A stretch of DNA of 64,000 nt from positions 62,001 to 126,000 of the forward strand of contig BGKB01000065.1 of NCBI GenBank assembly GCA_003116975.1, read 5' to 3'. This DNA comes from Aurantiochytrium sp. KH105. Lineage: Eukaryota; Sar; Bigyra; Thraustochytrida; Thraustochytriidae. Positions 26,088 through 64,000 of this stretch are shown in pieces (positions within the stretch are counted from its first letter, which is position 1; each line of letters opens with the position of its first letter). A program made the position numbers and the translations under genes. Below the pieces are notes generated by a model that was not told where the DNA came from, made no database searches, and saw only the letters and a program-made list of their open reading frames with translations.

Positions 26088-26357
26088 GAACAGATACTTT
26101 TCATGAGAGAACGAGATGAGGCCGCAGACAGGCGTGCAGAACGGCAACATAAATTGAGAGAAGAGGAAATCAAGCTGGAAAGAGAAAAGTTCAAAGTATA
26201 TTCGCGACAGCAACAAATGGAGCATCTGCGAAGTTACTTTCCTTTGCTCGTCAGTCGTCTCAAGGATGAGAGAGAAATGGGAAATAGCGCTGAAGAGGAA
26301 TATCTTCGGCAAGAGATTCGAGATATACAAGCAGAGCTTCGCAAAGGAGTATTATGA
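26088..26357 (+). pseudogene. In-frame continuation of transposon ORF1 after a TGA
   Basis: Directly after the TGA the same frame stays open for 89 codons and encodes a strongly charged coiled coil (RAERQHKLREEEIKLEREKFK). Such a helix is typical of the C-terminus of transposon-encoded trihelix partners. The TGA therefore probably truncates a once longer protein. It could also be restarted from the ATG at 26103. Confidence 0.5.
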
Positions 26358-28220: not shown

Positions 28221-28964
28221 AGCCTGTGCGCGGCCACGCCTCGTGATCGTAGGCTCGCGCGAGGCGTGCGACTTGCGATTTTGCGCACTTGTGCACAAAC
28301 AATCTAGTCCGCGGCTTGCGAAACCCAAATTTGTTCATCTAGAATGTACTTGAAATCGCAGCCCAACAAGGACTCCGGATTGAGCGGGGAGGAAACACTG
28401 TCACCCCCCAGCCAGCTGAAAATGGGGAAAAACTAGGGCATCGAACCGATCGGATTCGGTATAGTTTTTCCTGTTCTTGGGATAGAACGATCCGAAGAAC
28501 ACTATTTGGGTTGCCCACCGTGACCGTGACAGCGCTCGAGCCCTGCCCCCCGGAAAATTTGGAAAAATGAAAATTTCGAACTGATTTTTCCGAAAAATCG
28601 GGCTGTGAATACAGGCTCGAACATACGGGGCAGGTTTTTGAGATATACGAAGTACGAAAATAATCATGAGAGAGGAAACGAGGTTGAAGTACAGAAGGAA
28701 AAGGGCCCCGCCGGGTCTGGGGTAGGCTAGGCTTGGTTGGCATCAGCTCAGCCTGGGAGAGAGAGTGGGCGGGGGAAGAGAACGACGTCATCGACATGGC
28801 TTCATGCTTGCTCTTGTCCTGGCTTGTCTTGTTTTGTCTTGTCTTGTCTTGCGTCTTGTCTTCGTCTCGGCCACGGACGAGGGGGGAAGAGAGAGAAGCG
28901 AAGCGCTGACTGCGCCGCGTCACATATCACACATCACACATCACACAAGAGGTCAGAGAACTAC
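28221..28964. other. Right flank of the transposon and 3' region of the G-alpha gene
   Basis: 28221-28640 probably belongs to the element. It carries the second copy of the 20-base direct repeat (28619-28638), and near 28543-28634 an imperfect inverted repeat whose arms end in CCTGCCCC and GGGGCAGG. 28790-28960 has TTGTCTTGTCTTG and CACATCACACATCACACA short repeats. No gene was seen. Confidence 0.45.
28619..28638 (+). repeat. 20-base direct repeat, right copy
   Basis: Same sequence as 23746-23765 except A for G at the fifth base. Confidence 0.6.
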
Positions 28965-40827: not shown

Positions 40828-43800
40828 CTACAGCCTATCTACTGGCGCAACGTACGGCTGCAGACCGAGCTGTCGAGTCTTCTTGGCACGCTCGTACATG
40901 ACTTCGAGGTACTTGTTCTCTTGTTCAAGATCTTCGTAAAAATCCTTCGGAGCATCTTTGTCGGCTTGATCGCTGCTGAGGCTCGACTCGAATGCAGATA
41001 TATTTCTCTCTGCGCTCTCCATCTCGCTTCCAAGCATTTCGGTCAGATCATCAGGGAGCGAAGCGCGAATTCGATCCTCAGAGAAAAGCTCTTTGCATCG
41101 CGCGAATTTCGATCCTCTTGCTGCATTTCTGACCTTGAGCGCAATCAAGGCAAGCTGCTTGAGATCGTTCTCAACCAGCCCATCCGTCATGGGGTCATGT
41201 GCTACCCAGCTTTGCACTGAATTATCATCATCTCTGCAGATCCACCATCTCTTGGCTTCATCTTCTGAATCCCACAGCTCCTCCGCACGAAAGACAGCGT
41301 CCAAGTCATCAGCGTTGTAGATGCAGTCGTCGTCTTGAGTCGCGTCATAGCGAGGCAAAGTCGCAGTTTCATTTGATCCTCGAGGACACCATGGGTGCCA
41401 AGACGTGTCCATATCTCCTCGTTGCCAGGTTCTACGCGAGTTAGATGTGCTCTCTGGTGTGGATCGCTGAATACGAACGCCAGTCTGGAGATCAACGGTG
41501 TCAAAGTGATCAATCAGAGCGTGAATTGCGCCTTTAATTGCATTGGAGCACCGCTCTCTTTCGGGATCCTTTTTGCTTTTGCGCATGATGCCGCCCATAA
41601 ATATGGACGTCGACCCGTGCTCCAACGTTTGGTCAATGAAAGCTACATGCTTTTCGACATCTTGCCAGCGAAGACGACCGAATTTATCCCAGTATTCACG
41701 CTGTATCCTTCCAGGCAATCTGTTCATGATCCCTAGACAGTTGTAAAGCTTCGTGGCAAACTTGCAAAACCGAGTCTTGGTGAGAGGATGGGGAACAAAA
41801 TTGCACCGTGTGCAAACTCGCACAATTTCTGCGTCCTTCGTTTGGCGTGATGCCGCGAGAAGATGCTTGCAGGCGTCAACGCGGCACATGCACCAATCAC
41901 AGTCCTCTCCGAGGAAAGTCCCATGTGCGCAAGTGAGACACTTCGGACAGGGACGCTTCTCATTGTTTGTATTGTCATTTCTGCCGGGCCTCACCAAGCG
42001 AGCCTGTTGATGTTCTGCGCAATAGCAGTCATTGCACTCTTTGAGAGGTATGTCGTGATCACACCACTCCTTACAGACACTGCAGCGTCCCCGGACCGGT
42101 TCTTCATCCGGATCAAGCTTGCGATTGCACTTGAAGCACCAACAACGATTGCAACGGCCTTCAGCGCAAGACCCAAGGCCGTTGCAGAGATCTCCATGTC
42201 GTTCACAATAGCACAACTTGCATTCCCTCTTGGGAACTTCGTGCGAACAGTTGCAGGGATCAATGCAAGTCAGACACGCACATACGTCGCTAACCTTCCC
42301 ATCGGGCCCTTCAAACCTCATTGTCCGTTTGTGTTTGGAGCAATAGTGATCTGTACACTCGTCTTTCTTTTGCACAACGTCCAGACCGAGGACCTCGCAC
42401 GTTTCACACGGATCCTCGCAAGCATTGCACTCGTACTTGTCCCGGGAGACAGTAAGCCTTCGCCGCTCGTGCATACGGCAATAGTGCTTCTTGCACTCAT
42501 CTCTTGGCATTTTCTCCCCATCTTTGCAGACTTCACACGGTTTTTCGCAAATTGGACAATGACCATCCATCTCAACAAGGTCGACACCACCGTTATCAAC
42601 GATGCCGCCATCAGAACGCCCGTGAATACTAGCAAAACACCAGTGAGGATTGACAGAGCCCGCGCACTCTCTGCGCGTCACCCATGGACTGTCGGCATCG
42701 TTCGCGTCGATGGCCTCGTGTGGGTGCTCGTAGGAGCAAGCGGGCTCGCCCTTACAAATGACACAGTCCCCGCCTTCTGCACGCCGCTTGTGCGTCCTGC
42801 AAAAGTGCTGTTGACACTCCATCCTTGAAGGCCTTTCCCAATCCTCTATTTTGCTTCCGCAGATTACGCATGGATCTTCGCAAACAGCGCACAGGAAATC
42901 GCCCAAGGTATCGGGTTGCTTTTCTCTTCCGTGCTTGGAGCACCAGTGATCCTCGCACTCTTCCTCCCAGGAGATGTCTTCCTCAGATTTGCCTTCTTCG
43001 CGACATATCTCGCAGCCAAACTCACAAGACATGCACTTGCGTTCAGAAGCCGACTGATCGCTCAACTTGTTTCCGCAGCCAGCCTGGCGACGGCCCCGGT
43101 GGGTTTCTCCGCAAATGGGGCATACGAGAACCCTGGTCGATTCATGAACCTGGCACCAGCATTCTTTACAATCACGTTTTATCCTGCCATGACTGCAACA
43201 GCATTTCGAGCACTTCCCTGTATCCACGTCGAGCTTGATGTTCTCGTGTCCAGTCTCTTTACAAAAGCATTTGTGACATCCTCTCTTGCCATCACGAGTC
43301 TCCAGAGGCTCTCCTGTGTGACCCTCCCGTTGGCAGAAGCACTCTTTGCATTCGATGCGGTACAAGTCCTTGTGCTTTGGGCAGGGGTTAGCGCATACAG
43401 GACATTTCTTCTTGCCCCAGCAAAACGGGTCCCCAACGCCAAAGACGTGTAACTCCTTCAAACGCTTATGCTCGCTGCAGTAGCAGACGCTGCATGCCGT
43501 GAGCAATCTTCGTTGCCGTATGGAACAGTCACAGATGCGGTCCTCGCTCAGGCTGCACGAGGGACACCCCACATTGGTGCGCATAATAAACAGGTGATCT
43601 TTGCAAAAGTGTTCGTCACATTGCCACCAAAATCGGAAGCGATGAGTTTCTTTCGCACACCGCTCGCAGTGTCCCGGTGAACGAGCTAGGGCGCATCGCC
43701 AATTCGCTCTGAGAAAGTGCGCGATGGGAACCAAAACTGCGAGGATGACCACCAGCGCTACGAGTGTCAACAACTCAACAGTGATGACAGAAGTCGATGA

Positions 43801-46800
43801 CCCAACCAGAAGTGGTCCATAGATAGAAGCAAACACAGTAATCGGGGCTACTGATAGTACATACGTAGCGAAGAGAATGATCGAGGCAAACAAGGAAACG
43901 ACAGCTGCCACAAGAAATCCAGGGACACTTGCTACATCACAAGTGAGAGAGCATTTACCTCCTCTGCATTTGGAGGGATTCTCCCCGCGAGAAGAGCTGA
44001 ACGTCTCGTTACTCTGTGAATGTCCTGATGAGCTTGACTTCGATGAACGTTTAGACAGCACGCCAGAGCCCGCTGAGGACTCCGAAGAAGAAGATGAACA
44101 AGACGTCTGATCCAGACTCCGCTCTGAATTAGCGTCTGCGACGCGATTCGATCGAGATAGGTCAAAAACACGAGCGAAGCCTTCTTGCATCGTTCCGCGA
44201 ATACAGTGCCAAAGAAAGGAGATATAGAGATTGCACTTGTTATGGAGCCAAGAGAGCACTGTGCAAAGCCTTAATTTTGTCAATGACGCAAACAGATTTC
44301 CCACGTCGAGTCCAATTTTCAAAAACGGCAGAAAGTACCAGCGAACGAACTTGCGCGAATAAACAAAGAATGCAAACCACGCAAAGAGCGTGACTGTTAC
44401 GCTCACTGCTTTGGGTATTGCCCAGAGCCTGCGATATGGGTGTGCGGCGCAGAGATGCATTTGCGCGTACGCTCGCACATAATGAGAGGAGGCATCATGG
44501 CCATCAATCTGAACAACGGTCTTCGAAAGAGTGTGAAACGGGCCTTCAAGAAAGTCTGCGCCTTCAATGTCCTCTAGCAACACCCGCATCTGTTCTACAC
44601 TGACGCACGTCCCCGCGAAAGCAACAACATCGGTCACGAGATGAGAGAGGCGTGAGCAATCTGCAAGGGATGTGTTCGTTGCCTCGTATTGTGTAAAGAT
44701 AGGCTCCATCGCAGTGCTCTTCTCCATGGAGTTTTTTACGGCAGGCACAATGTACACTTTAAGCAAAGGCACAACCGCGATAAAGATGAAGAGACACAAA
44801 CCGGGAAGAAGCACCAGCCACAGGGTGAATGCAATCTTTGCCCAGCCTGAAAGAGTGGCCGCGACATATTTATGCAATGGCTTTATAACGCCAGAGTCTC
44901 GCAGCGCTTCATACTTAACGCTTGACTTACTGTCAGTTCCTGTTTCCGCCGAAGATTGCTGTCTCTGGTCGCCCTTCCACAGCTCTTTATTCTGTGCACC
45001 CTGAAGCGTCTCCGAGCCAGCTTCTTCTTCGTCCGTCTGATCACCAGAAGGTAACCAAAACAAGTCCCTTCTTTGAACCAAAAAGTAGGCGTACAAAAGC
45101 ATGTCCACCGCAAGATCTCGAGGAATAACGTTGGAATTCTCAGTCGACTTCTCTGGATCTCCTTTGCCATCACCAATGTCTTTCACAGTGCTTTTGCTTT
45201 CCACGTCGGATTTGATTTCTCGAACCTCTTTCAGCTTGGCCTCAAAAGCGCGTTGATGCTCCTCCACTTGCTCACGCTTGGCTTCCATCTGGAGCGCGAG
45301 CTCGGATATAGATTCTGCGTTATGATGATTGTATGTGCCAGCCATCGATTCGACGTTATCGAGATACGACTTGCGCATACTGGCAAGGTCGTTCTTGGCT
45401 TCTTTCAGCGTCTTTTCTGCATTCCGTCGTCGCGCCTCGGCTTCGTGTAGCCGCCTCTTGTCTTGCTCAAGGCGATTGTGGCGAATGATTGAACTTCTCA
45501 GATCCTCCATATTGCCGAGACACTTCTCCCGGAGCTCTCGGAGATGTTCTTGCGCGTTGCTGAAGCCCCACACCCTCGACTCCAGTTTATTTTTCATCGA
45601 GATCAGGAAGTCCCAGAGACGAAGAATACCGTGCAAATGGGACCCGTTCTTCTCTTCTTCTTGAAAGCATTCTTCAATGAGGTTTTCTTTGACTCCATTC
45701 GAATGCTTTGTCTTGTCCATCAACTTCTCGTGCGCTTGCTTAGATAATTTGATGATGCCTGAGAGCTCCAGGTACAGAATGAAGTGTCTCGCGCCAAGTT
45801 TGAGCGTGTCAGTCGTGCTGAGCTTCAGTGCGACCAAATCGAGTAAAGGGCGAAAGAGCTGGGCCTCCTTCTCCTCGTGGGCATACTTGCCGAGCCGCGA
45901 GAGCACACAGAAAACCAATAGTCCACCTGCGATGAGACCTATAATTCTTTTCCGGATTTCGGGGTCGAAGCAACTCGTAAGTTCATATGCGCTCCCTTTG
46001 TAGAATGTGAAGGCCAAGTTTTCCTCACGGGTCACGGGGTAAAATATGTGCGAGATAAAGGTCCGGGCAGTGACTTCATCTGCCCGCTCCAAGAGAGGTT
46101 GGAGCTTTGCAACGTCAATGCACTGTCCGAGCCAAACAAACTGAGAAGAGGAAGTTACCGTGGCAATGTCTGCAAGGGTCAAAGAGCACCCTGCCGAAGC
46201 CGCGAGGTCATCGTCGTTGTCGAAGAGGGGAACCATCCAAAATGCCACCCAGATTAACGCGTAGGCAATGCACAGAAGTACGAGGAGAACCAGCAGTGGC
46301 GCGTACAACCATTTCTTGAATAGGTCTACAAGTGACCTTGCCCAGTCCTTTAGACTGCGCCACAGCTTCTTGATCTTTTCATTTTCGTCTGACTTCGGGG
46401 CGCTGGTTGATGAATTTGCGTCGCCTACTTCTGAAGTCTGGGACTGAGACTCTCTCGCGTCCTCCCTGTCGCGAGAGTTACTCCTGAGGCCGAGTCCGTT
46501 CGGGGCCTGAACGCTTTGGTGGCCTCTGTCCCCTCCTTTAACCTCCTCCTCCTTCTCCTTCTCCTGCTCCACATTGTCGTGGCCGCGGACATCTTCTTTT
46601 CCGTCGTCGACGTCGTCGCCCTCTACGCTTCTCTCGCTGGTCCAGTCATTCGTCGAGTCGAAGTCGTTAAAGGCTCCAACCGCATTCGAACCCTCATGTG
46701 AAAAGTCATGCCATGGCATGTCCTCCTTTTCCTCGTCGTCCTCGTCGTCCTCGTCCTCGTCGTTCTCGTCCACGAAGTCATCAAAGACGTGGTTTTGGCC

Positions 46801-47190
46801 AATGTGCCCGACGGCAAGTGTGCCGCCATGGTCGCCGTCTACGCTCGACACGTCGGGCGAGCGGTTGTGTGAGGACGTGCTCTCGGCACCATCCTCGTCT
46901 TCACCTTCGTCGTCCTTTTCGTCGTTGGCGGCGCTCTTGTCCGCGCTCTCGTCCGCGCTCTCGTCCGCGCTCTCGTCCTCGCTCTCGTCCTCGCTCTCGT
47001 CCTCGCTCTCGTCCTCGCTCTCGTCCTCGCCGTTCGCATGCTCGCTTTCGCTTTCGCTTTCGCTTTCGCTTTCCAGGTCCGAGGCGCCAAGGTCGCTCCC
47101 ATTTTCGCTTACGGCTTCGAGGCTGCCTTCGTCTTCCTGGCGAGTCGCGAGCTCCTCGCCAGGTACGCGCCCGCCGCGGGCTCGCCGCAT
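40828..47190 (-). CDS. Giant polytopic membrane protein with 13 Cys/His motifs (family member A)
   Basis: 2120 residues from an ATG at 47190 (MRRARGGRVPGEE). Order of parts: acidic, Ser/Asp/Glu-rich 1-280 with tandem EDES/ADES units (54-88); TM1 294-322; loop with Cys335, Cys357, Cys407; TM2 415-433; coiled coil about 545-680; TM3 785-815; second loop with Cys845, Cys862, Cys914 and an Asn-glycosylation sequon near 839; TM4 923-945; Ser-rich linker 1010-1070; TM5/TM6 1089-1162; Cys/His-rich 1175-1775 with 13 copies of C-x2-[CH]-[FWYM]-C-x2-H-like motifs, first Cys at 1191, 1233, 1281, 1305, 1341, 1412, 1459, 1509, 1566, 1612, 1657, 1719 and 1764; conserved block PHPLTKTRFCKFATKLYNC (1800-1818); then a variable tail with HDPMTDGL. 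Zinc binding by the Cys/His part and a cytosolic position are inferred. No known family is recognised. The paralog on the minus strand at 54311-61219 is closest. Confidence 0.85.
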   Translation of the reverse strand: MRRARGGRVPGEELATRQEDEGSLEAVSENGSDLGASDLESESESESESEHANGEDESEDESEDESEDESEDESADESADESADKSAANDEKDDEGEDEDGAESTSSHNRSPDVSSVDGDHGGTLAVGHIGQNHVFDDFVDENDEDEDDEDDEEKEDMPWHDFSHEGSNAVGAFNDFDSTNDWTSERSVEGDDVDDGKEDVRGHDNVEQEKEKEEEVKGGDRGHQSVQAPNGLGLRSNSRDREDARESQSQTSEVGDANSSTSAPKSDENEKIKKLWRSLKDWARSLVDLFKKWLYAPLLVLLVLLCIAYALIWVAFWMVPLFDNDDDLAASAGCSLTLADIATVTSSSQFVWLGQCIDVAKLQPLLERADEVTARTFISHIFYPVTREENLAFTFYKGSAYELTSCFDPEIRKRIIGLIAGGLLVFCVLSRLGKYAHEEKEAQLFRPLLDLVALKLSTTDTLKLGARHFILYLELSGIIKLSKQAHEKLMDKTKHSNGVKENLIEECFQEEEKNGSHLHGILRLWDFLISMKNKLESRVWGFSNAQEHLRELREKCLGNMEDLRSSIIRHNRLEQDKRRLHEAEARRRNAEKTLKEAKNDLASMRKSYLDNVESMAGTYNHHNAESISELALQMEAKREQVEEHQRAFEAKLKEVREIKSDVESKSTVKDIGDGKGDPEKSTENSNVIPRDLAVDMLLYAYFLVQRRDLFWLPSGDQTDEEEAGSETLQGAQNKELWKGDQRQQSSAETGTDSKSSVKYEALRDSGVIKPLHKYVAATLSGWAKIAFTLWLVLLPGLCLFIFIAVVPLLKVYIVPAVKNSMEKSTAMEPIFTQYEATNTSLADCSRLSHLVTDVVAFAGTCVSVEQMRVLLEDIEGADFLEGPFHTLSKTVVQIDGHDASSHYVRAYAQMHLCAAHPYRRLWAIPKAVSVTVTLFAWFAFFVYSRKFVRWYFLPFLKIGLDVGNLFASLTKLRLCTVLSWLHNKCNLYISFLWHCIRGTMQEGFARVFDLSRSNRVADANSERSLDQTSCSSSSSESSAGSGVLSKRSSKSSSSGHSQSNETFSSSRGENPSKCRGGKCSLTCDVASVPGFLVAAVVSLFASIILFATYVLSVAPITVFASIYGPLLVGSSTSVITVELLTLVALVVILAVLVPIAHFLRANWRCALARSPGHCERCAKETHRFRFWWQCDEHFCKDHLFIMRTNVGCPSCSLSEDRICDCSIRQRRLLTACSVCYCSEHKRLKELHVFGVGDPFCWGKKKCPVCANPCPKHKDLYRIECKECFCQREGHTGEPLETRDGKRGCHKCFCKETGHENIKLDVDTGKCSKCCCSHGRIKRDCKECWCQVHESTRVLVCPICGETHRGRRQAGCGNKLSDQSASERKCMSCEFGCEICREEGKSEEDISWEEECEDHWCSKHGREKQPDTLGDFLCAVCEDPCVICGSKIEDWERPSRMECQQHFCRTHKRRAEGGDCVICKGEPACSYEHPHEAIDANDADSPWVTRRECAGSVNPHWCFASIHGRSDGGIVDNGGVDLVEMDGHCPICEKPCEVCKDGEKMPRDECKKHYCRMHERRRLTVSRDKYECNACEDPCETCEVLGLDVVQKKDECTDHYCSKHKRTMRFEGPDGKVSDVCACLTCIDPCNCSHEVPKRECKLCYCERHGDLCNGLGSCAEGRCNRCWCFKCNRKLDPDEEPVRGRCSVCKEWCDHDIPLKECNDCYCAEHQQARLVRPGRNDNTNNEKRPCPKCLTCAHGTFLGEDCDWCMCRVDACKHLLAASRQTKDAEIVRVCTRCNFVPHPLTKTRFCKFATKLYNCLGIMNRLPGRIQREYWDKFGRLRWQDVEKHVAFIDQTLEHGSTSIFMGGIMRKSKKDPERERCSNAIKGAIHALIDHFDTVDLQTGVRIQRSTPESTSNSRRTWQRGDMDTSWHPWCPRGSNETATLPRYDATQDDDCIYNADDLDAVFRAEELWDSEDEAKRWWICRDDDNSVQSWVAHDPMTDGLVENDLKQLALIALKVRNAARGSKFARCKELFSEDRIRASLPDDLTEMLGSEMESAERNISAFESSLSSDQADKDAPKDFYEDLEQENKYLEVMYERAKKTRQLGLQPYVAPVDRL

Positions 47191-48789
47191 TCTGGGTTGG
47201 CGGACCGCGCGACCAGCTCAGATGGCTTCGCGTTTGGTCTTTGGTCTCCGCTCCCTGCGCAAAATGGCAAAAGCGCTGCGCTGGCTCGGCCATCGCCCGC
47301 TGGCCCCACGCAGCGCCTGCACACGATCCGTCAGGTCCACGCCGGCATTGACATTAATTCACGTCACGGTGCGTGCGCATCGTCGCCGGCGAAGGCGTGA
47401 GCAATTGGAAGAGAATAGGTTGAAAGCGTAGCCCAGCTGCCACCGCAGCCGACGAATCGTCGGACTCGCTAAATTGATACGTGTGGTTAGTAGTGCGTGT
47501 ACTCTGCGTGTATTGCGTGCCCCGCAGACAGAGGACGTACGGCCACGGAGACCGACGTCCGAGCCTCCGCTGCGCAAGAACCCAGCTGCAGGCTGCAACT
47601 GGCCGCACCAGCCAAAGCTTGAGCAGCAGCCTGGGTTTACCTTCCCTTAATTGTAAGCGCCCGAAGCTGGCTCTGCAGCTGCAGCTGTTGCTGGCAGGCC
47701 GCATCCCAAGCACCCGCCCGGAAGCATGAGCTCACAAGGCGGCTCCGGCCCACACCTGAATCCCTTAACAGTAAGGCCCAGAATAGGAGTAACTGTGGAA
47801 GTTGCACACCCTACAGCGCTCCCAAGGTCTGAGAGCGCTCGGTTGGTTGTCAACGAGCTTAGCTAAGCATGCGCAGCTTCGCCTGCGACAGCGACGTGAG
47901 CAAAGTCTGCGCAGACGTAGATGTAGACGCACGCACGCGCGCACGGCGCAGCGGTGCGTACGTCTCCAGCCAGACGTTCCCGGGGCTGTGCTGCAGCTGG
48001 CAGTGGCTGCAGCAGCTGCACAGCAAGCAGCCCCTCGCGGGCGGAGCAGCCTCGAAACCGAGGCATCGATGGCACGCGAGACGCGGCAGCGGCAGCAGCC
48101 GCGCGACTGCGACTGCCGGCGCGACGCGGGCGAGACGAAAGGAGACGAAAACGGAGACGAAGGGAATCGATGCGAGACACATCACACGCACGAGGCGCGC
48201 CGAGCACACCGAGCCTAGCTCGCGAGCCAGCAGAGCCTGGAGGCAGGGGAAGCTCAACCGGACGCACACGGAAGGTAGTGTACGCGCGTGCGTGCGTGGT
48301 GCCTGGGCGGGCAGACGGCCTACAACTCGCTGGCAGCTGCTCCTGCTGCTAGTGCAGGTGGAAAAGCCGCGTTCTTGGCGCGGAAAACCCTCGCAGCTGG
48401 CGCGCACACACGCCGCAGCGTTGACGCCGAGAAGCGAAGAAACATGTGCAGCTGCAGCTGGCATGGCTGCTGATGGCTTTTGGACGACGGCGCGAAAACG
48501 CGCCTGTCGCGACTCGATCGCTTGCAGCCACGGATCATCGTGAGAAAACATGGGCGGCAGTACCTGCGGAGAAATCGACTGCGGCGGGCGATGACCGGAG
48601 CTGCACCTGCAGGCTGCAGCTGACCAAACCGCAATAGGCCTACGCGTGGTTCGCAGCGTCGGCCGGAGGCCTGTGCCTGCGAAGAAGCGATAGCTGCTTT
48701 GGTTTCTCGGCGTCGGCCGTGGGCTCGTACCCGTGGAGAAGCGGTAGCGGCTGCGATTGCGGCGCCCACTGCAAGCGGTGGCGGAGGCG
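47191..48789. other. Divergent promoter region between giant genes A and B
   Basis: 1.6 kb of GC-rich DNA with many CAGCTG/CTGCAG words (about 47580-48650) and an imperfect 54-bp tandem repeat (units at 48656 and 48710, each beginning GCGTCGGCCG). Many mid-length frames occur on both strands, all low-complexity. No gene is supported. Confidence 0.5.
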
Positions 48790-51700
48790 ATGGAGGCCCC
48801 GGAGGAGGCCGTGAGCTTGAGGCTCTCATCCCGCGATGGGGACTCAAGCGATGGAGACAAGCCGAAGAAGAAGGGAAAACCGGGAAGATGGTTCTCTCTC
48901 GTCTGTGGAGGTCTTTGGTGCTTGCCGATCCTCGTGCTGGGTCTACTCGGCCCTGTATCTTGGCTCCTTACCATCTACTTCTCGATCGACATCGCGCTCG
49001 CGTCGAGCTTGGTGGAACAGCCATTGGAGAGCGCAAGCTTGGGCTGCAATACGCTCGCACAAGAGGCGCAGAGGCTTGGCGTGACGAACCTTTTGTGGCA
49101 AGGCTCATGCAACAACTTCGATGGCATCCGTGACATCCTCGACAAGAGCGCATATGTCGATCTCATCACGCTTCTCACGATGCTGATTGCCCGCCAACAA
49201 GATGTCAAGAACTGGATTGCTTCAACGTTTGCCCAAGACACAGGATGCTACGACCTCACCAGCAAGAGCATGTATTACATCTTAAGCGTTGTTATCTTTC
49301 TTCTTGCCATCTTTGTGCCACGATCATTTGGCTCGAATTCGCACTCTGGCAAGGAGGCTAAAATGTATCGTCCGATCAAGGAAATTGCCACGCGTTTCGC
49401 GTTCGACAGACGCTTGAACAATACGAACAAAGACCCAGAAATGCGTAAAGATCCAAACAGCTGGAAAGCCATCTTTAAGCGTGCCAAATTCTGGGATTCT
49501 GCAAACAGGCCCGAGAATTTTGCTGTTCTGGACTCCTGGGACGACAAATGGCGTTACATTCGTGACAAGATGAAGCCCGCCCGCTCGCTTGCACTCGGAG
49601 GCCAAAAGTTCGCGAGTTCAGACTTGCAAGCGCTCCTCGAACTCACGAAGAATGAAGATACAGAGACCAAGCCAGCGGCAGGGGACTCGTCGCGCCATTC
49701 CGACTCCGACAGCCCAAAGAGAAGCCTCGAACTTTCGCTGATCCCCGAAGCGGAAAAGCGCGTGCGTGAGGCTGAAGATCTTATGAGCGAGAAAATGGCA
49801 AATGTGGAAGGAGCCTTTAACGCACACAAAATGAGTCTCTCTCACTCGTTTGGGAGAGCCGTATCACAATCGCGTGCAGACAGCGAGCTCGCCGCCGTCA
49901 TTGAGGAAGCAAGGGATGCTGCGCGAGCACTCGCTGAGGCAGAAGACCACCTGAATCAACTTCGCGCAAACCAGCGCGAGAATGCTAACTGCACAAAGAG
50001 GAACGGAGGAGGAGGAGGTACTCATAACGACCGAAGCATGATTGTTATGGAAGCCATGATCGAGAAGGCCAGCGATAATGACCATCAATGGACATTCTAT
50101 CGATGGATCTCAGGAACAACAGACGGAGATGGTCGTGCCGACGGAAAGGAGGCCGACGAAGACCAGAAGATCCTCAGAAAAAGCGCTGAAAGTTATGTCA
50201 AGAACCGAATTGATCGCTGGGCAAAATGGTCTCTTTTCTTTTGGATCATCTGTTGGCTCGCAATGAGTGCGCATCTGGTTTTCCTTATCTTCATTCCTGC
50301 CATTGACGACTCCGGCATAATAAGGCGGCGGCTTTCTGATACAACAGATACTAATCACGCGTGCGTTCGTCTTTCCACCATTCTCGAAAACAACACAATT
50401 GCATTTGGTGGTGCGTGCATGGATACAAGATCCTTGGGAGAGGTCTTAGGCGTCCTTGAAACGACCGCCAATATCCAGCACGAGTTGTCCAGGGTCGACT
50501 CGATCCTTTACGCTTACGTTTTTAACGGAGACGCGTGGTCCCGCTTCCGACAGCAAAGCAGAGTTTGCACACCTCAACTCCAAAGTGGCAAGGGTTTTGT
50601 CAAAAGTATCCTCGGCTCCAATTTTTTACGAGCATTCTCGCTCCCCACAATTGTCTTTCCAAGTTTTTTCACATTTGCCTATGCTCCCGTTACGCAACGC
50701 TACATCATTCCCAGGCGCGTTTACATTATTCTGGGAGAACTAAGGGACCTCCTGATTTTATGGTACCAACGCGGAATCTCGCAGGGTAGTAAGGTGCTAC
50801 CGATAATCAAAGCGCTCGGAACGTGGGGTAATGCAGTACTGTTCTTCTTGGTAGCTGTTGGAGTCACCGTCATCGCCCTCGCAGTCAAGTATCTCCCGAC
50901 TTTGTTGGGAGATTTAGAAGCAATATCCCCTGGAACGCCGACAGTACCTCCAACGCTTTCGACATTTGCCCCCACAAACTCTCCAACGCAAGCGCCAACG
51001 CCTCTCCCTGTGCTCAGTCCAACTTTTGTGCCGACGCTGCAGCCTACGGCCTCTCCATCTACGAGCCCTGTAGCATCGGAAGATATGCACTTGACGGGGG
51101 GAGCCATCGCGGGTGCTACTGTTGCGGGCATCCTGTTTCTCTGTTTCGTCATTGCAGCATGCATGAGGTCGGGTTCAGGCAAGTCGGGTTCAGGCGATGC
51201 TGGAACTCCTTATCTCCCCAAGTCCCGAAAGTGCGCCGCAAAAGGTCTTCTCGGGCTCGTATATTTTGTCGTTGGAACTCCTTTTCTCCTCATTGTTGGC
51301 ATTGGCGCGCTCCCTATTGTTCTTTTAGCGCTTAGCGGCTACATAGTCTACAATGGAGCCAAAGGCCTTAAGTCTGGAGGCGGAAGCCTTTGGCGTCGCG
51401 CAAAATTTGTCGGAGCTTACTTTTGGACCAAATTCATCCGTCCAAGGCTTCCCGATGCCTGCGAGCTCTGCGACTTAGAGTTCAATCGATACAGGCGATG
51501 GTATAAGTGTCAGGACCATTACTGCGAAAAACATCACTATCGGCATGGAACTCTCCAAACACCATCTTGTCCAAAATGTGATGATGAAACTGTGGAACTT
51601 TGTGACTGCACGAAGAAGCTGAACCGCCCGCCCCTTCGTGAGTGCGAAGTGTGCTTCTGCATCACCCACGACGTAAGAAAGACTGAGTCCTCATCCAGAG

Positions 51701-54117: not shown

Positions 54118-54310
54118 GGACAATGCAACGAGGCCTGCGAAGAAGACGAGAAAACTTGCGCCACCTTTACGATCATTGCAGAAACCGGCCACCGATTGCG
54201 CGCTGAGGCCCAGTACGACGAGGTGGACGGGCGGGGAAGTCATACCAAGAGATTTAAATCCAAACAAACACATTTTTCATCATCTTATTCGAACCAGGTC
54301 CGCAAATACG
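54118..54310. other. Short gap between converging giant genes B and C
   Basis: 193 bp with an AT-rich centre (GATTTAAATCC, then ACACATTTTTCATC) that probably carries both 3' ends. The reading frame of B happens to stay open past its TGA into the antisense of C. Confidence 0.5.
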
Positions 54311-57300
54311 TCAATTCTCGCCGCTCCAATACTCGCGGTCATCGTCGTCCTCATCCGAATCCGAATCCTCACCATCACCTCGAAGCGTTCTGCCAGAAAT
54401 ACTTCGTAATACTGCCGCCCATGTTCGCCGTCGACGCCCCTCAGAAGGCCTGCCAATGCTGCCAGAAGTTGAGCGCGTTGTACGCAGCCGCTCGTTGTCC
54501 CACAGTCTGGGTCCACTTCCGAGAAGTGCCCTCGCGTTAAGCTGATTTTGTCCTGAAGCAAAAGTTCCTCTTGAAGACAGCTGTGTATCGCGACGCAGAG
54601 GCCTCAACGCAGGAAGAACGTAGGGCATCACGTTCACTTTCAAAACGTGCTTTGCATCGGCATGTGCTTTTGCGTCTTTTTCATTTACCTTCCGAATGAA
54701 CTTGTACGATTCCGAGTCTGCATCTTTGCTCTTCCGGTTTCCGCTAATTTCCACTAGGTAGTTTTTCAGGTCTTGTTCTGCCTTTCGTACTTCGTCCGTA
54801 AACAGCTTTGCTGTAGTACTTTGCGGTGCGCCCATTGTCTGCTGCGCTGGGTCTTGCACAAGAAAGCCCAACTGGTTCTCTTCAGAGAAATATGTCACGC
54901 ATCGAGGATAGCGCATGGCCTCCACTGAGTCTTTGAGGTCCACCGCCACGGCTGCAAGTCGTTTGATATCGGCCTTCGTTAGGACGTCCGTCATGGGATC
55001 GTGGCCGTACCACGAATCGCTTGATTTCCATCCGGCGTCGCCATTTGAGCCATCTGGCCACCATCTTCGGTCACTAGACGCATCCCACAACGAGTCTGCA
55101 CGGAAAATGTCGTCAAGCTTTCTTCCCTCAAGGAAGTGGCTGCCTGCCTCGACAGGATCCTGCCCGTTGTGATTACATGAGGGAGGATTTACGAACCATG
55201 GGTGCCAAAGCTTTTGGGGGCGAACTGACACTTTCCCGCCCCCTTTGGTTTGAATTCTTCGCGCATTCTCGCGGCTCGTATCCTCCTCCTCGAATTGTAT
55301 CAGCTTTGCTCGCTCACCGGTCCCAAGGTTAACAACTTCGAACTGCTCCTCAAGGGCGTGAAATGCCACCCTCACCGCGAACGCGCACTGTTTTTCCCGG
55401 CTCGAGCAGTCTCTCTTCGGGGTTCCACGTGTTAAAAAGGGGACGTTTTGATTTCTGCGCCCCGCATATCGGAAAGACACGTACTCCTCGAGATCACGCC
55501 AAGATAGTCGTCCTGAATCTCTCTTTGGTGAGAAAGGTCCCCACTTTCTCCGAGCAGGCCAATATTCACGCATGAGATTTTCTGGGAGCTTGTTCGTGAG
55601 AGCGAGGCAATTGTGGAGCTTGGCTGCGAACTTGCAAAATCGAGTCTTGGTCAACGGTAGTGGAACCACACTGCACCGCGTGCACACACGCACCCACGCA
55701 GAGTCCGTGCTTTGGCATGTTCGGGTGAGAAGATGATCACAATATGCTGGTGAGTGATCATCGCGCTGGTGCCGACAGTAGCATTGCGAACATTTACCGA
55801 TATATCCCTCATTAGAATGCTCTCCGCGCATTCCCTCTTCTTCGCCCGCACTCCAAAAATCTTCTCCCTCATGCTCGCACGAAATGCACCTGAGACACGG
55901 AAGAACTTCGGGCTTGGCACCGTCAAGGACAGGCTGCTTCCTCATCAAGCGAGGCTGGCCATGTTTCGAGCAAAAGCATTCATCACAGGTCTCGAGATCC
56001 ACATCGTGGTCGCACCAGCCTTTGCAGCGAATGCACCGTCCATGAATGGGTTTCTCATCCTTGTCCCGTCTCCGTTTGCAGTAAGAACAGATGCAGAGGT
56101 CGCAATATCCATCCGCACATCGGTCGCTCGCACAGAGAAATCGTTTGTGTTCGATGCAGTAGCATTTCTCGCACTCCTGGGCTGGAACGGGATGGCCGCA
56201 CTTGCACGGGTCAGTGCACAAGAGGCACTGACCATCATCCCGTTCCGAGGTCTCGGCTCGTCCAAGGTCCACTCGCCGCTTGTGCTTCGAGCAATAGTGG
56301 CCCTCGCACTCGTCCGCCTTTGGGGCTTTCGTATCGCCAGAACCCCGATCCTCGATGTCTTGCTGTGAAAGCTTCTGCTTGCACTCCGGACAGGGATCCT
56401 CGCATGCAGCGCAACGCCGAAAGCCGAAATTGCCCTTCACCTTGTATCGCGCGTGCGCAGCGCAGTAGTGCGATGCACACATCGTCTTGGCTCGCTTTCT
56501 GTCCGACGGGCACTCCTCACAGGGGTCGGCGCAAACTGGGCATTGCCCATTCGCCTCCACAAGATCGACACCGCCGTCAGTTTCAACGAGACCTTCATTG
56601 GTGTTCTTGTGCATTTCTCCGAAGCACCAGTGAGCATCGTCATGTCGCGCGCACTCTTGGCGAGTTAAGATGCGGTCTTCGCCCTCGTGATCGTGGTGAC
56701 ACGTCGGCTCACCATTGCAAACGATGCAGCGGCCGTCGTTCTTCGGGGCCTCGCGCTGGTGCTCCGCGCAATAATGACCGCGACGAGGCCCTTCGGGCGG
56801 ATCGTGGCACTCTGTGCGCGCGTGCATCATCTTGTCGTCAGGTACACCGGGGTTGATGCAATACGGACATGGGTCGGCGCAGACTTCGCATTCGCACTTG
56901 CCATTGCTATCGGGGCGGCCAAAGCGCGCATGTTTCGAGCACCAATGCAACGTGCACTCCTCTTCCCAGCACATATCTTCTTTACGGACTCCGTCCGCGC
57001 GACAAGCATTGCAGCCAAACGAACAATTCATGCAGATTCGGTCAGCCTCGGGATCAGCAGTATCGAGCTCCTTCGTCTTGCACTCTGCTTTGTGACTTCC
57101 AAGATGCGTCGAGTTGCAATCCCAACACACGACGGAAGTGGCGCGATCATGTATCTCACACCAGCACACTTCGCACGCGGAGCGATCCACATGATGAGCG
57201 CAAGTACACTCCGGACAAAGGCCCGTCAAGACATCGAGCTTGACGTCACGGTGATCAGGATTGCTCTGGCAAAAGCACTTGGCACAGCCGCGTTTGTCGC

Positions 57301-58193
57301 TACGCAGAGGTTCCCCTTTATGATTCTCTCGCTGACAATAACAGTCCTCGCAATATAGTCGGTAGACGAGCTCGTGCTGCGGGCACGGATCAGTGCAGAT
57401 GAGGCAGAGCTTCTCCCGAGCAGGATCTCTTTCTTGGCCGGGTACAACTCTTGTCTTGATAAGTTGGTGCTTGACGCAGAAACAGACGTCACAGTCTTGG
57501 CGAAGCTTCTTGTTGCGGCCACTGCAATCGCACAGCGGCTCGTTGCTCTCACAGGCTGGACACGCGTTTTCATCACTCTTGAAGAAATCGTGCGACTTGC
57601 AATAGTGAGTTTGACACGACTTCCAGAACCTATAGCGGTGATGCTTTTCAGCGCAAGCCCGGCACCGGCCCGGAGATATGGAGAGCGCACATCTCCAACA
57701 GGCTCGAAGTAAGAGCACGAGCGGAAGCACAACGGCCAGCACGACCAGAATCACGAGCAGCAGTCCGAATTCACCCGACATGATCGAGGTTGCCAAACCA
57801 ACCATGGTCGGTGTAGAAATGCTTGATAAAAGCAAGATCGGTGTTACAGAGACCGCGAAGACGGTACAAAGAACCACGCAAAAGCACACGAGCATCACAC
57901 TGAGGATGGCCAATTCAATACCTTGGCGTGACCGCTTCGCTAGTGCTCGCATGGCGTTAATGGATGCCTGATGATTTGCCTCATTCTTTCTCTGTTTCGC
58001 TGTTCTGGAAGGATCCTCGGAATGCGCCTTCTTATTGACGGGAGAAGAGGGCCATCTCGGCAAGCGCTTTCTGAAGTTATCAATGCTGCTGTTATTGCCG
58101 CTGCTGCCAGCAGAGCTGAAGCTCGCGTTTTCTCCTTGCTGCGACCCATCATCGCCATCCTCATCGTCATAGTCAGCGCCGTTGTCATCGGTA

Positions 58194-58226
<33 letters not shown>

Positions 58227-61219
58227 TCGTCGTCATCGTCATCATTGGTATCGTCGTCATTGGCAACATCATCATCGATATCGTCACCATCATCACCATC
58301 ATCATCGATATCGACTTCGCCATCACCTTCATCATCAGGAAAGGTCCTCTTGAAGGAGCAAAGGGAACGCTGATCTCGACAGACAGCGTTGCCATGACGA
58401 ACAACAATGCAGATCCCGCTCCACAGTCCAGAAATACATGTCCAAAACGTTCTCCCCAACCAGCTCAACCCTTTCCACAGACGACACGTGATATACCATG
58501 CGCATTCAACGCCCACATCGTAGCCCTCTCTTATAAAGGGAAGAAAGAACCATCTCACGGCTCTGCGCGAGAAGATAAAGTAGCCAAACCAAGACACCAT
58601 AGCGACAGCGATAGCTATTGTTTTGGCAACAGCCCAGGACTTCCGGTACGGATGCGCTGCGCAAAGGTGCATCTGGGCGTACGCTCTTGTCAATAAATCG
58701 ACTGGTTTTTCGTCAATCAGCAGAACGGATTCGGGCATTGAGTAGAAAGGCCCATGCGCAAAATCTGCCTCCTCGACCTCGGCGAGCAAATCGTAAAGGG
58801 TGTCGTAGTCGATGCAACGGCCCGCAAATGGAACTTGGCTGGGAAGTAAATCCGACAGACGAGTACAATTTTCGTTTCGTGTCGTCCCTGGCCATTCGGA
58901 CATAATCACCTGCCCCCACACACACAGGCACACAAGCCCGATGCAGATCGCGAGAGTTGGAAGCGCAGAAAACCAAAATATGTACGCAGAGACGGCCCAC
59001 TTTGTGAGAACCTCCTGCACATAATTCGACAGCATCTCCTTCGTATTATATTTTTCGAGCAGCGGATACGCCTCCCCTTTCGGATCTTCCGTCTCCTTTT
59101 CAGCGCCATCGTTCTGCTCGCCCTTCTGCTCTGCATCTGCGCCCAGTCTGCTCAGAATGCCGTTCACGCAACCCTTGAAGCTACACCACTTGGGTCGCGA
59201 ACAAGCGCATAAGGCGTGGCAAGAAGGACTGCTAGATCCTGATCTGCACTTCGAACATGCCCATTCACATCGTACGAGACGCCAAAACCAGTCCGTAACG
59301 CCCCAGCAGCTGAATCGCGGAAACCAAATTCGTCGTCTGAGCCGTGAGAGGGGGGCCGAGCCTGCGTCTGACGCGTCTGACTGACCAGGTGGTCGTCGCC
59401 AATACAATTCCCGCTTGTGCACCATAGTAAAAGCAAAGAACATCATTTCGACCGCATAATATGCGGCTATCTTGCCTTCGTTTTGCCCTGTGACTTTTTG
59501 CAACTTTTGTTCAATCCCTCTCCGACGTTCCATGAGAGTCTTTCGCTCCTCTTTGAGGGTCTTTCGCTCCTTTTTGAGTTCATTCGTTTCTTCAAAAAGA
59601 TTGTCCATCGGCACTTGCGCAACGAGCTTAGAGAGCAGCTCCTCGCTCTTCTCTGCAAACTGCTTTTTCCTCTCCCGAAGGTCCACATCAAGTCTCTGAA
59701 GTCTTTCATCGATATTCTCCAGCTCCCGTTTCAGGGCAACGAATGTTGCCGGAGATAGGCGGAACACTTTTGCCGTGCCTGCATTTCTAGAGTCGCGACT
59801 TGTGTCATCATCACCAAAGTGCGCGTCACGTAGATCTCTGAAAGCCTTGGTTGTATATGTGAGGCCAAATGCCGAGTCTTTAAGAAAGACATACGGCTTT
59901 GTTGCAAACTTCATGATCCAGTGACTTTCTCCGCGATATCGCTCGACAGCGTCGATCTCGCGAAAGCTCGAGACGTACTTTTCGAAGTCATCGGCACTGA
60001 GATCAGCAAAGTCGTGCATGGTGAGATAAACCATGGCAATATTCAGAATGGGGCGGTAAAGCTGTGCTTCCTTCTCTTCGTGCAAAGTTTCGCCGAGCCA
60101 TGACAGCGCAATGAAGACGACAAGACCAAGACCAATGCCAATGAACATCAAGATGCGCGTTTCCCCGTCATAGCAGCTTGCCACCTCGTAGAGACTCCCG
60201 TCGCGCCAGCTGTCCCAGGACAAGAGGGTATCAGGTGTTCTCGGGTCGAAGATTTGCGAGGCAAAGGTCCGAGCAGTAATCTTGTCTGCGTTTTGAAGCA
60301 GGTTTTCCAGTCGTGAGAGATCGGTGCACTCCCCGAGCCAAAGAAACCTGTTTTGGCCACTGGCCGCGGCGATCTGTCCAAGACCTTGCGTGCACTCAGT
60401 CGGTGGCGCTACCGCTCCATCGCAGTCAAAAGCTGGCCAGACCCAGACAAATGCCCACCAGAACAAATAGGCGAGGCAGGTGATGAGCACAAGCCCAAAG
60501 AGCGCCCAACAGCACCATGACTCAAAGCGTGAGCCTGCAAACTTGGGCAGGTCCTTGAAGCCTCTCGACTTATTTACTTTTTCGTCTTCTTCTTCAAATT
60601 TCATACGAACCTCTTCGTCGCTGACAGTCTCGTCGTCATCGCTGTCTTCGTCTCCACTCGAGAGGTCTTTGCCAGGACCGTCTCTATCTGCGGCGGCTTC
60701 TCCCTCGTGATCGTCATAACCTTTTCCCGCGTCGTTTGTCTTGTTCTTGCCGCGATTCCGATGGAAAACCTTGCTCAACGATGAATATCTGCTGGACATA
60801 CTGCCAGCACTCTGGCTCTTTGCGTGCACACTGATTCCCCCGGGCGCAATAGCGTCTTCAGCTTCTCCTCTTCCTTGTTCTCCAAACTGGTCGCCGTCTT
60901 GATCCTCGTCGCGATGCTGACGATCATCCCCAACATCGCCGTCATCGCCGAGGTCACCTCGCTCGATCGTTTCTTCAGATGGAATCACTGCGCCAATCTG
61001 CTGCTCCATGTGTTCCTCGCGGTCGTGGACCGAAAGATCATCCTCGCCCCCCTCGACCTCGGCGCCATTGCGCTCGTCATCTCCATTCTCTTGTACGGCA
61101 AAGTTGCCGTTAATCTCGCTGTTTTCGCGATCGTCGTCTTGCCCCTCGAAGCCGGCAGTGAGCGCCTCGTTTTCGGTGCCCTTGGCAAGCGCCTTACCCT
61201 TGCGGATTAGCCGCCGCAT
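54311..61219 (-). CDS. Giant polytopic membrane protein with 13 Cys/His motifs (family member C)
   Basis: The frame is open to 61381 from a TTG, but the first ATG is at 61219 (MRRLIRKGKALAKG), giving 2302 residues. Member A and the fourth member also begin with MRR, which supports this start. Acidic, Asp/Glu-rich 1-220; TM1 236-262; loop Cys276, Cys298, Cys349; TM2 355-375, then HEEKEAQLYRPIL, nearly identical in A; coiled coil about 495-585; TM3 742-768; loop Cys785, Cys802, Cys853; the segment RAYAQMHLCAAHPYR is shared with A word for word; TM4 863-883; Asp-rich linker 962-1022; TM5/TM6 1100-1173; Cys/His region from about 1176 with 13 motifs, some with stretched spacing (CEDCYCQRENH, CAKCFCQSNPDH, CARHDDAHWCFGEMH); then PLPLTKTRFCKFAAKLHNC and HDPMTDVL. 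It ends in an acidic tail (GEDSDSDEDDDDREYW). Closest to A. Function unknown. Confidence 0.85.
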
Positions 61220-62170
61220 CTTCACGTTTTTGCTGCCGCTCCGCGACCCTGTTTCCGTCGCGTCAGGGTCACGCAGAGTCGGAGTCCGCTGCCGAGTCCG
61301 AGTCCTGCGCAGGAATCGAAAGTCGATTGCTGCTGCTGCTGCTGCTAATGCTGCTGCTGCTGCTAATGCTGGTGGCAGCAATCATCCAAGTGTCAACGCT
61401 AGTGAAATGTTCGTGCACGCGCACGTGCAGCACGCGCTGTCGCTGGACGTGCAGCCTGGGAGCTGGCGGGGTTGCGCCGCAGCAGTATCCTCAACTTGCA
61501 CGCTTCGCTTCGCTTTACTCTGCTCTGCTCTGCTTTGCGTTGCCCTGCCCTGCTCGGCTTCCCTCGCGTGGCCTCGCCTCCCGCGCCGTGTCGCCGCCCG
61601 AGGCAGAAGCCCCGCCGCGTGGAAACCATAGCAGCAGCCGGGCGGTCTCGGAAGCCTGCAACATCGTCACCATAATCATCATCTTCTTCATCACATCTCT
61701 CCTCTGGGCACGCTTGACCAAGCCCAGCCCGAAACTCGCCAGCGCGGTCTTCCGAGACGCGGGCTCTCGCTGCGACGCGCCGCGCCATCACACGGCCGGC
61801 CTCGCCTCGCCTCGCCTCGCCTCGAGTCGGGCTTGCGCGGGCGCGCTCGCTCGCGGCCGCGTCTCGTGGCGGCCTCGCATCTCCCGCATGGGCCCGCGCC
61901 CGAGGCGAGGCGAGGCCGCCGGCGCGGCTGGCGGCACTCGCACGTCGCGCTGCGGCTGGCGAGAGGCGGGGCCGGGCGGCGTGGCGGGCAGGAGCCGCGG
62001 CTGGCCTCGCCGGCATGGACAGCGAGCGTGCACGGGCGGGCTCCCCAAGCTCGATCCTGGGTTGTTGTGGAAACCTGGGACGTAACACAGCTGTGGGGCG
62101 ACACGTGCGGAGCCACGGCCACTGCGAAGAAGTGCCTTGGCCCGAGGTCTGCCTTGGCCAAAGAACTTTA

Positions 62171-62268
62171 GAGCAAAGCAAAGCCAAAGCCAAAGCAAAG
62201 CGAAAAGCAAAGCAAAGCAAAGCAAAAGAAAAGCAAAGCGAAAAGCAAAGCAAAGCAAAGCAAACCAA
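62171..62268 (+). repeat. AAAGC pentamer-type array
   Basis: About 100 bp of degenerate AAAGC/AAAGCC/AAAGCG units with strong purine strand bias, upstream of member D. Confidence 0.75.
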
Positions 62269-62296
62269 GGCGTCACGTGGGCTGCACGAAGATCGC

Positions 62297-62320
62297 GGAC
62301 GGACGGACGGACGGACGGAC
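62297..62320 (+). repeat. (GGAC)6 microsatellite
   Basis: Six perfect GGAC units followed by GAACGG. Confidence 0.8.
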
Positions 62321-63769
62321 GAACGGAGGGGCTGTCGGCAGCGGCAGCAGCCCCTGGCAGCAGTGCAGGCTGCGGCGGTCGGAAGCGACTTCCTGGTTGT
62401 CCTGGAGAACGTTCACTTGGAAAGAGCAAACATGATCTTGCGCTCCGAGTCAAACATCCGATCAGCCAACCAACCAACCAACCAGCGGATCGACCAACAA
62501 TGCCACCGACCAACCAACTGCAACTGATCGACCAATCGACCAAGCTTTCCCAAGTAGCAGCCAGCACCAGCAGTGACTCGACTGCCACTGCCAGCTGCTG
62601 CTGCCGCCAAACAAACTTCTTGTGCAACGTCGGCCGCATCGTTACACGGCTGCGGGCTGCTCTGACTCGCAAGAATCACGAGGACAGCCGCAGCCGTGAT
62701 GTACTTACCCACTCTTCCAGTTGTTGAGTGGCTGGCCGTCGTGGCAGTGGGGGCTGGCTGCATGTCACAGCCATGCCATGCCATGTGCTGCTGCTGATGC
62801 TTTTATCAGCACGTCGGTCAGCCAGACGCCTGCGCTCTCCAATTTCTCAGAAAAGTCATGGAAACCTGTGCCGATCGATGCTGGTGCTGGTGCTGGCAGC
62901 GCCCGAGGCGAGGCGCGTCGTCCATGGAGCGAAGTCTACGCTGTTGCAAGTCGCAAAAAACGCCTCGTTGCGGCTGAGGATCCCAACAATGTGAAAATAT
63001 CCTGCGGCGGCCAACGTGCTCTTTCAAGATGGCTTTTGGCCTCCGCACCGCGCCGTCGCCCGAAAGCGGAGCGATGAACGCCGCGGCGAGACGCGGCGCT
63101 GTCGCCCGTGCGCGCAGCCCCCTCCGCTGCCGCGCGCGCGGGCTCGGTGCTCGAGGGCGACGCTCATGGCGAGCGCGGCGCGCCAGGACGCCAGGACTGA
63201 CGTCATGACTGACGCTAGCGACCCCGCGCGCGGCGCAGCGACGGCCGGGGAGACGTGGCCGGCGGCCGGCAGCCGCGCAGCGCCACGCGAGCAGCCTGCT
63301 GCGGCGAGCTCGCGCGCGAACGGCCGCTCCGTCGTCTGCTCTTGGTGCGCAGCGCCGCCGTCGTTAGTGGCCTCCGCGCACATAATCCTACTACTATCCT
63401 ACTACCTGGCCGCACACACCCTCAGAAAGTGAGTAAGAGCTGGTTTAGGGGCGGCTTTTCGCCAAGCCCTGCTCGGAGGGAGGCTCTTGGAGGCTGGTGC
63501 TGCACGTCTGCGTAGGATGCGATGCGACGCGGCGGGAGACGGAGGTTCGGGCTGCTGCTGCCTGCTGCAGCTGCTCCCGCATCGATCTTGTGGCCTTGGA
63601 AGAAAGGGGAAAAGTGGGCTGGGTCGAGGAATTTACACTTTCTGGGCCGAGCACGATTGTGTGGGAATCGAGGGCCGCCGATGGCGTGGGCTCGGTGGGG
63701 TGGGCGGCACGGAGATAGATAGATCGATCAACGGCGAGGTTCCTGCAGCATCACGATGTGCAAACCGCA

Positions 63770-64000
63770 ATGCCAGCCATGAGGAGAGCGGGATTCGGGA
63801 GGGTCGCTGCGGCGGCGACGACGAGATTGCCCGCAAATCATGCTTCGGAGTCGTCAGAGTCCGATGCCCAGCGGAAGGGGCAGTCAAGGGTCATTCACAT
63901 TCTGCGGCTTGTCTTTGGGGTTCCACGCGCACTCGTTGTGGTGTTCCTCCGAGGCTTCCTCGTGCCTCTCTTCTGGATCGTGTCCATTTACTTTTCTGTG
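63770..64000 (+). CDS. Start of a fourth member (D) of the giant Cys/His membrane protein family, cut by the window edge
   Basis: The frame opens after a TAG at 63716-63718. The first ATG is at 63770 (MPAMRRAGFGRV; a second ATG follows at 63779) and the frame is open to the last base, giving 77 residues. After a Ser/Arg-rich start, a hydrophobic segment (about 48-77) ends LVPLFWIVSIYFSV. This lines up with GPVSWLLTIYFSID at the end of TM1 in member B. Like B it is on the plus strand, lacks the long acidic N-terminus of A and C, and is divergent from its minus-strand neighbour. Only the N-terminus is visible, so assignment rests on this alignment, the position and the strand. Confidence 0.6.
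   Translation, partial: MPAMRRAGFGRVAAAATTRLPANHASESSESDAQRKGQSRVIHILRLVFGVPRALVVVFLRGFLVPLFWIVSIYFSV

Follow-up and report, generated by a model that had tools for sequence, protein, structure and literature searches.

The locus examined here raises the question of what kind of protein joins a giant multi-pass membrane part to a long, ordered array of cysteine and histidine motifs, and what such an array might be for. The window, that is, the whole stretch of 64,000 nucleotides that was analysed (C65:62001-126000; C65 and C34 are contigs of the Aurantiochytrium genome), carries three such genes and the beginning of a fourth. Gene A (P0001, A-type; 40828..47190, minus strand) is an open frame of 2120 amino acids with 89% amino acid identity to its copy on C34, and is laid out as an acidic N-terminus, a membrane part, the Cys/His array and a C-terminal part. 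Gene B (P0002, B-type; 48757..54117, plus strand), with its first ATG at 48790, shares 93% amino acid identity with its C34 copy, and gene C (P0003, A-type; 54311..61381, minus strand) has a probable ATG at 61219. The three frames run without stops for 2120, 1786 and 2356 codons, respectively. Gene D, which is B-type, contributes its first 74 codons to the window (63779..64000, plus strand), the rest lying beyond it on C65, and was recognised by similarity to the N-terminus of B: the 81-codon frame from 63758 gives a Smith-Waterman score of 61, reached by none of 500 shuffles. A, B and C are paralogues, with identities of 46% (A-C), 40% (A-B) and 38% (B-C) in the array and of 36%, 28% and 28% over the whole proteins. 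Long acidic runs, including poly-Asp, are found in the N-terminal part of the C product and ahead of its fifth helix.

The array of A (residues 1175-1818; 41737..43668, minus strand) holds 91 Cys and 32 His, that of B (residues 902-1553, 13 modules; 51460..53415, plus strand) 92 Cys and 35 His, and that of C (residues 1240-1925; 55607..57664, minus strand) 91 Cys and 40 His. The first-pass annotation had described in each member 13 copies of a motif close to C-x2-[CH]-[FWYM]-C-x2-H, nearly equally spaced and held in register. Thirteen motifs per member are borne out, their positions align in A, B and C, and the register across the three arrays is supported; the spacings given for B are exact (starts at 918, 963, 1007, 1029, 1069, 1135, 1184, 1227, 1295, 1340, 1380, 1450 and 1495), and those for A match provided that motif 8 begins at C1509. 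As a total, however, 13 is too low, given additional motifs in B (CRICDCPNH at 991, CSKCDCTH at 1055 and CSDCNCVYC at 1404). The strict pattern occupies 28 of the 39 positions (9 in A, 11 in B, 8 in C); the other 11 motifs, located by alignment, bear insertions or changes, and all but one of the 39 have F, W or Y at the junction. Shuffling each array 5000 times yielded a mean of 0.008-0.010 strict motifs and a maximum of 2, the shuffled stretch of C containing 7 of its 8 strict motifs. Most motifs are preceded by a conserved, CxxC-based partner. A profile built from the modules of A and C only (19 windows) recovered all 13 modules of B in order, 12 with i-E<0.01, and, among the further members described below, 15 in F, 12 in E and 11 in D (13, 11 and 9 of these, respectively, below 0.01), the match in E being no independent test because E is close to C. 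The same profile, run on three shuffled arrays and 21 other ORFs of the window, gave nothing below 0.01 (best 0.071).

The array cysteines are nearly frozen, as expected of metal ligands. The three arrays A, B and C agree at 85 of the 92 gap-free Cys columns (taken from B) and at 23 of 33 His columns, whereas for columns with neither residue the count is 82 of 483; a potential ligand stands in all three at 109 columns. Between genomic copies, summed over six gene pairs, none of the 552 array Cys differs, as against 3 of 220 His and 249 of 3255 residues of other kinds. Between close paralogues the array Cys are unchanged for C against E (0 of 90), but 3 of 83 differ for D against F. Over the 12 genes of the family, 104 Cys/His columns are identical (82 Cys and 22 His), six of the Cys being in the membrane parts; 14 further columns have Cys or His in at least 10 genes, of which 12 differ by gaps in shortened copies of D and the last two change in B and its copy. 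With Cys and His removed, array dN/dS between copies is 0.32 to 0.68. Read with the ligand counts, this means that the frame of the array is fixed and its surface less so.

That the array belongs to no named family, as had been proposed, agrees with all the searches: no significant match to it was obtained in Pfam, NCBIfam or the sequences of the PDB. Against Pfam at E<=1, the whole proteins gave no match for A or B and three for C, the best of them below cut-off, and against NCBIfam none for A or B and five for C, all below cut-off. DUF2207_C (E 2.1e-5, 24.8 bits against a cut-off of 33, with no single stretch passing) and SepX_GlpR (26.6 bits against a cut-off of 160) were both considered for C and rejected; their matches fall on membrane and acidic stretches. 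Among PDB sequences, B found eight non-significant matches (E 0.038-0.23), the best being the lin-28 zinc knuckles over residues 1410-1462, and profiles of the array, of the modules and of the C-terminal part found none. Two AlphaFold models were obtained, both poor (pLDDT 47.6 and 51.4), and the Foldseek search that had been suggested, run with the first of them, failed to produce a significant fold match, its nine matches all having E>3. With models of this quality, the treble clef proposed in the first-pass annotation, with its zinc knuckle, hairpin and helix, is no more than a candidate fold. In the literature no such family is described among the matches listed, a weak negative, and the motif, spelt in five ways, had no literature match.

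The motif C-x2-[CH]-[FWY]-C-x2-H seems to mark the place where one zinc site meets the next rather than to be a single site, so that the repeat unit would have to be re-cut. Gaps between ligand pairs alternate between long ones of 4-36 residues, which would lie inside sites, and short ones of 1-7, which would lie between them. A partner ending in Cys goes with a motif of the form CxxH-x-CxxH in modules 6, 7, 9 and 10, and one ending in His with CxxC-x-CxxH in modules 3, 5, 12 and 13; module 11 obeys the latter rule in B only and departs from it in A and C, modules 1, 2, 4 and 8 are without a full partner, and there are insertions in C7 and C13. When pairs are joined sequentially, 20 of 22 sites are C3H and two are C4, a result equalled by 1 of 20000 label shuffles, and the other sequential phase gives C3H in 10 of 21. 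Cross-brace pairing in its four phases gives C3H in 13/22, 10/19, 9/19 and 10/19, the best being reached by 28% of shuffles, and nested pairing gives 9/22, 18/19, 10/19 and 18/19. These counts omit the non-invariant pairs at 1092, 1207 and 1368, all but the first pair of the irregular stretch 1385-1407 and every pair from 1500 onwards. The shuffle figures overstate the support, because the data had been seen before the scheme was settled on and because the modules share an origin by duplication. The test ranks the pairing schemes and proves none of them.

The closest competitor to sequential pairing is a set of nested double-zinc modules, in which an outer site made of CxxC and CxxH would enclose an inner one, each module being a separate repeated domain. 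Its two well-fitting phases (matched in 1 and in 0 of 20000 shuffles) equal the sequential fit, and the His moves in step between ligand positions 4 and 6 (modules 6, 7, 9 and 10 against 3, 5, 12 and 13). Both of these phases, however, leave one or three pairs unused at the start of the array, and module 4 lacks a CxxC partner of its own; we judge the nested arrangement unlikely. Sequential pairing is preferred because it uses every pair at the array start and needs no partner for module 4, and it would place about 27 sites in each array.

The nearest architecture to such a sequential chain is the LIM-like double finger. The spacer of LIM domains is two residues long and contains an aromatic. 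The resemblance to LIM (PF00412) would lie in two zinc sites bound in order and abutting through a short spacer; the differences are a spacer that in the motifs has a single residue (1-7 across all junctions) as against two in LIM, loops that are mostly shorter, and a chain unbroken by single-domain boundaries. LIM domains are presented as tandem, non-overlapping treble clefs in one paper (PMC4999995), and another assigns LIM a sequential binding topology and RING a cross-brace (PMC7614390). The LIM profile matches 28 places in the genome at E<=0.001, none of them in the C65 or C34 cluster, and has no match in whole A, B or C or in the 29 module windows scanned out of 39. Other families share single traits with the proteins, namely the long Cys/His arrays of NFX1-type zinc fingers and the Cys-rich part that DHHC acyltransferases carry on a multi-pass membrane protein, and some array junctions read DH[FWY]C; at E<=1, A, B and C gave no match to either family.

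The very high Cys content is shared with metallothioneins, and the proteins could be imagined as a buffer or sensor for zinc or another metal at the membrane, with the array as a store whose shape follows the metal load; the potential ligands common to A, B and C at 109 columns would speak for this. Unlike metallothioneins, the array is built of long repeats in fixed order that contain His, are joined through aromatic residues and keep their spacing; its aromatic-flanked sites and short, constant junctions look structural, where metallothionein is flexible, and no transporter family was matched by A, B or C at E<=1, which leaves storage or sensing distinctly improbable.

Still less credence is due to a membrane ubiquitin ligase whose RING-like or B-box-like, cross-braced units recruit E2 enzymes. 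The B-box topology is a cross-brace, and the array does resemble B-box and RING domains in its alternation of Cys/His pairs; RING models match unit A7 below threshold (best E 0.00084), zf-RING_5 matches 2 of 29 windows (best E 0.007), and structures with B-boxes account for three of the nine non-significant Foldseek matches of the poor model. The pair spacing differs, however, from the B-box and RING consensus; no RING model matches more than 1 of 25 units or 2 of 29 windows (of 39 modules), none rises above cut-off (best 19.8 bits for zf-RING_10 against 31), and none matches whole A, B or C at E<=1. The suggestion of B-box-like units made in the first-pass annotation is not supported either, since the zf-B_box profile, with four genome places at E<=0.001, misses the cluster entirely and the ligand types expected of a cross-brace occur at chance.

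On which side of the membrane the array lies depends on the membrane part, which by hydropathy spans residues 299-1153 in A (43732..46296, minus strand), 46-861 in B (48892..51339, plus strand) and 294-1225 in C (57707..60502, minus strand). The coupling of the array to a multi-helix membrane part with two loops holds as originally described, whereas the figure of six helices is only approximate. A and C have six helices by hydropathy (at residues 299, 416, 792, 925, 1089 and 1135 in A) with an extra hydrophobic stretch between helices 5 and 6, and in B-type proteins an extra hydrophobic stretch precedes the array and the fourth helix is weak. Loop 1 of A (45946..46239, minus strand), probably extracellular, and loop 2 (44419..44760, minus strand) each have three Cys, which are invariant in all 12 genes, and the two loops are related (hhalign P 2e-4, probability 46%); B has a Pro/Thr-rich loop between two late helices (50887..51105, plus strand). 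In the six-helix reading, Lys and Arg flanking the cytosolic side number 17 against 8 on the other in A and 17 against 6 in C. These counts favour a cytosolic array, with some doubt about its side because the helix count is uncertain by one. That same uncertainty, together with the Pro/Thr-rich and Cys loops pointing to the extracellular side, is what an extracellular, disulphide-rich array in an adhesin or surface component could appeal to, but because A, B and C agree at 23 His columns that are in register with the Cys, and because a K/R-rich stretch devoid of acidic residues follows the last helix in A and C (that of B being K/R-rich too), we find it hard to credit.

The reading that we prefer is that of a family of giant multi-pass membrane proteins, detected in a single gene cluster of the genome, with two related loops of three invariant Cys each that are probably outside the cell. 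Probably inside are the chain of metal sites, a C-terminal part and a charged stretch that, by eye, may be coiled. The chain would consist of about 27 metal sites, most of them C3H, in the form of 13 double-site modules; the first half of each motif would close one site and the second half open the next, with a single aromatic between them, in the manner of abutting LIM-like fingers. It may present a row of small zinc-held surfaces in which the ligands are frozen and the exposed residues vary, and it would probably dock cytosolic partners at the membrane. By analogy, a membrane-anchored scaffold is our best guess for the function. A-type and B-type proteins possibly work together, as a pair, given the three head-to-head arrangements of their genes. 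We hold this reading as a whole, docking scaffold included, only tentatively, as somewhat more apt to fail in one of its parts than to hold in all. The genes, the register of the arrays, the conserved Cys, the kinship of the loops and the paired order of the genes are directly shown, whereas zinc as the metal, the pairing of sites, the topology, the scaffold role and the partnership are inferred. The two C4 sites, the exception of module 11 and the array Cys that differ between D and F count against the reading. A more specific version, in which the roughly 27 abutting sites, nearly all C3H, form a zinc rod on a paired A-type/B-type receptor and the rod lengthens by two-site modules, is conceivable, if rather on the doubtful side. 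Such a rod, with junctions of one to a few residues and with 13 modules in A, B and C and three more in F, would represent a new class of zinc protein. If this is true, we would know of no membrane protein with a longer ordered chain of structural metal sites. The module number varies by whole two-site steps, which makes the family a natural setting in which to ask how chains of zinc fingers grow and whether abutting sites fold as one rod. The special surface structures of thraustochytrids are poorly explained at the protein level according to one paper, in which three candidates with transmembrane and extracellular parts are called too divergent for its authors' interpretation (PMC12221091). 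A role of the family in the ectoplasmic net is only a thought.

The extent of the family was determined in the 76 Mb genome (367 contigs). It comprises six genes on C65 and six on C34, on strands that alternate - + - + - +, with A, C and E of A-type and B, D and F of B-type, forming three head-to-head A-type/B-type pairs. Searches at E<=10 that used the A array or residues 291-1030 of A as query found no other genome locus below E 1, and B as a query at E<=0.001 found none beyond the cluster, with 26 of 55 candidates scored. C and E are 88% identical, D and F 82%, A and C 36% and B and D 38%, copies across the two contigs are 89-96% identical, and the 199 bases following C are 95% identical to those following E. 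These gene identities and the gene order point to a probable duplication of a head-to-head A/B pair, followed later by another of the C/D pair. Many profile matches are paired on two contigs, a pattern that points to two haplotypes or subgenomes. Scans of viral contigs with the array (70 stretches matching two short patterns) and with the C-terminal part (45 such stretches), and of GTDB contigs with the array (again 70), confirmed no relative.

Within the cluster, gene F has three additional modules of 42 residues in both genomic copies (period 126 bases), each holding the ligands for two sites. In gene F (C65:142417-149931), ahead of the array, residues 880-1479 hold 41 Trp, spaced at intervals of exactly 11 residues in 24 of 40 cases; this long 11-residue repeat is probably an amphipathic helix, and its edges resemble D. 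The two copies of gene D (C65:125719-132032 and C34:281745-287657) end at about 1700 residues, after module 12, and past their ends family-like C-terminal sequence continues in other frames, with stops on C34. The region C65:62001-152000 includes 223 undetermined bases (N).

Elsewhere in the window, a transposase-like ORF (26355-28328, minus strand) matches DDE_Tnp_4 (E 4.6e-27), and CFAP43-like, G-alpha and Rad52-like genes (15443-20953, 28968-30503 and 37842-39593) occupy long open frames, which points to a eukaryote, perhaps with few introns. In the wider genome, matches of the PfaD family with 682-711 bits lie on C72, C155, C17 and C58, in open frames of 1845-2152 amino acids; in view of the PUFA synthase of thraustochytrids they fit a protist like these, but as a hint only, since the PfaD-type family also has matches in three of 14 control genomes.
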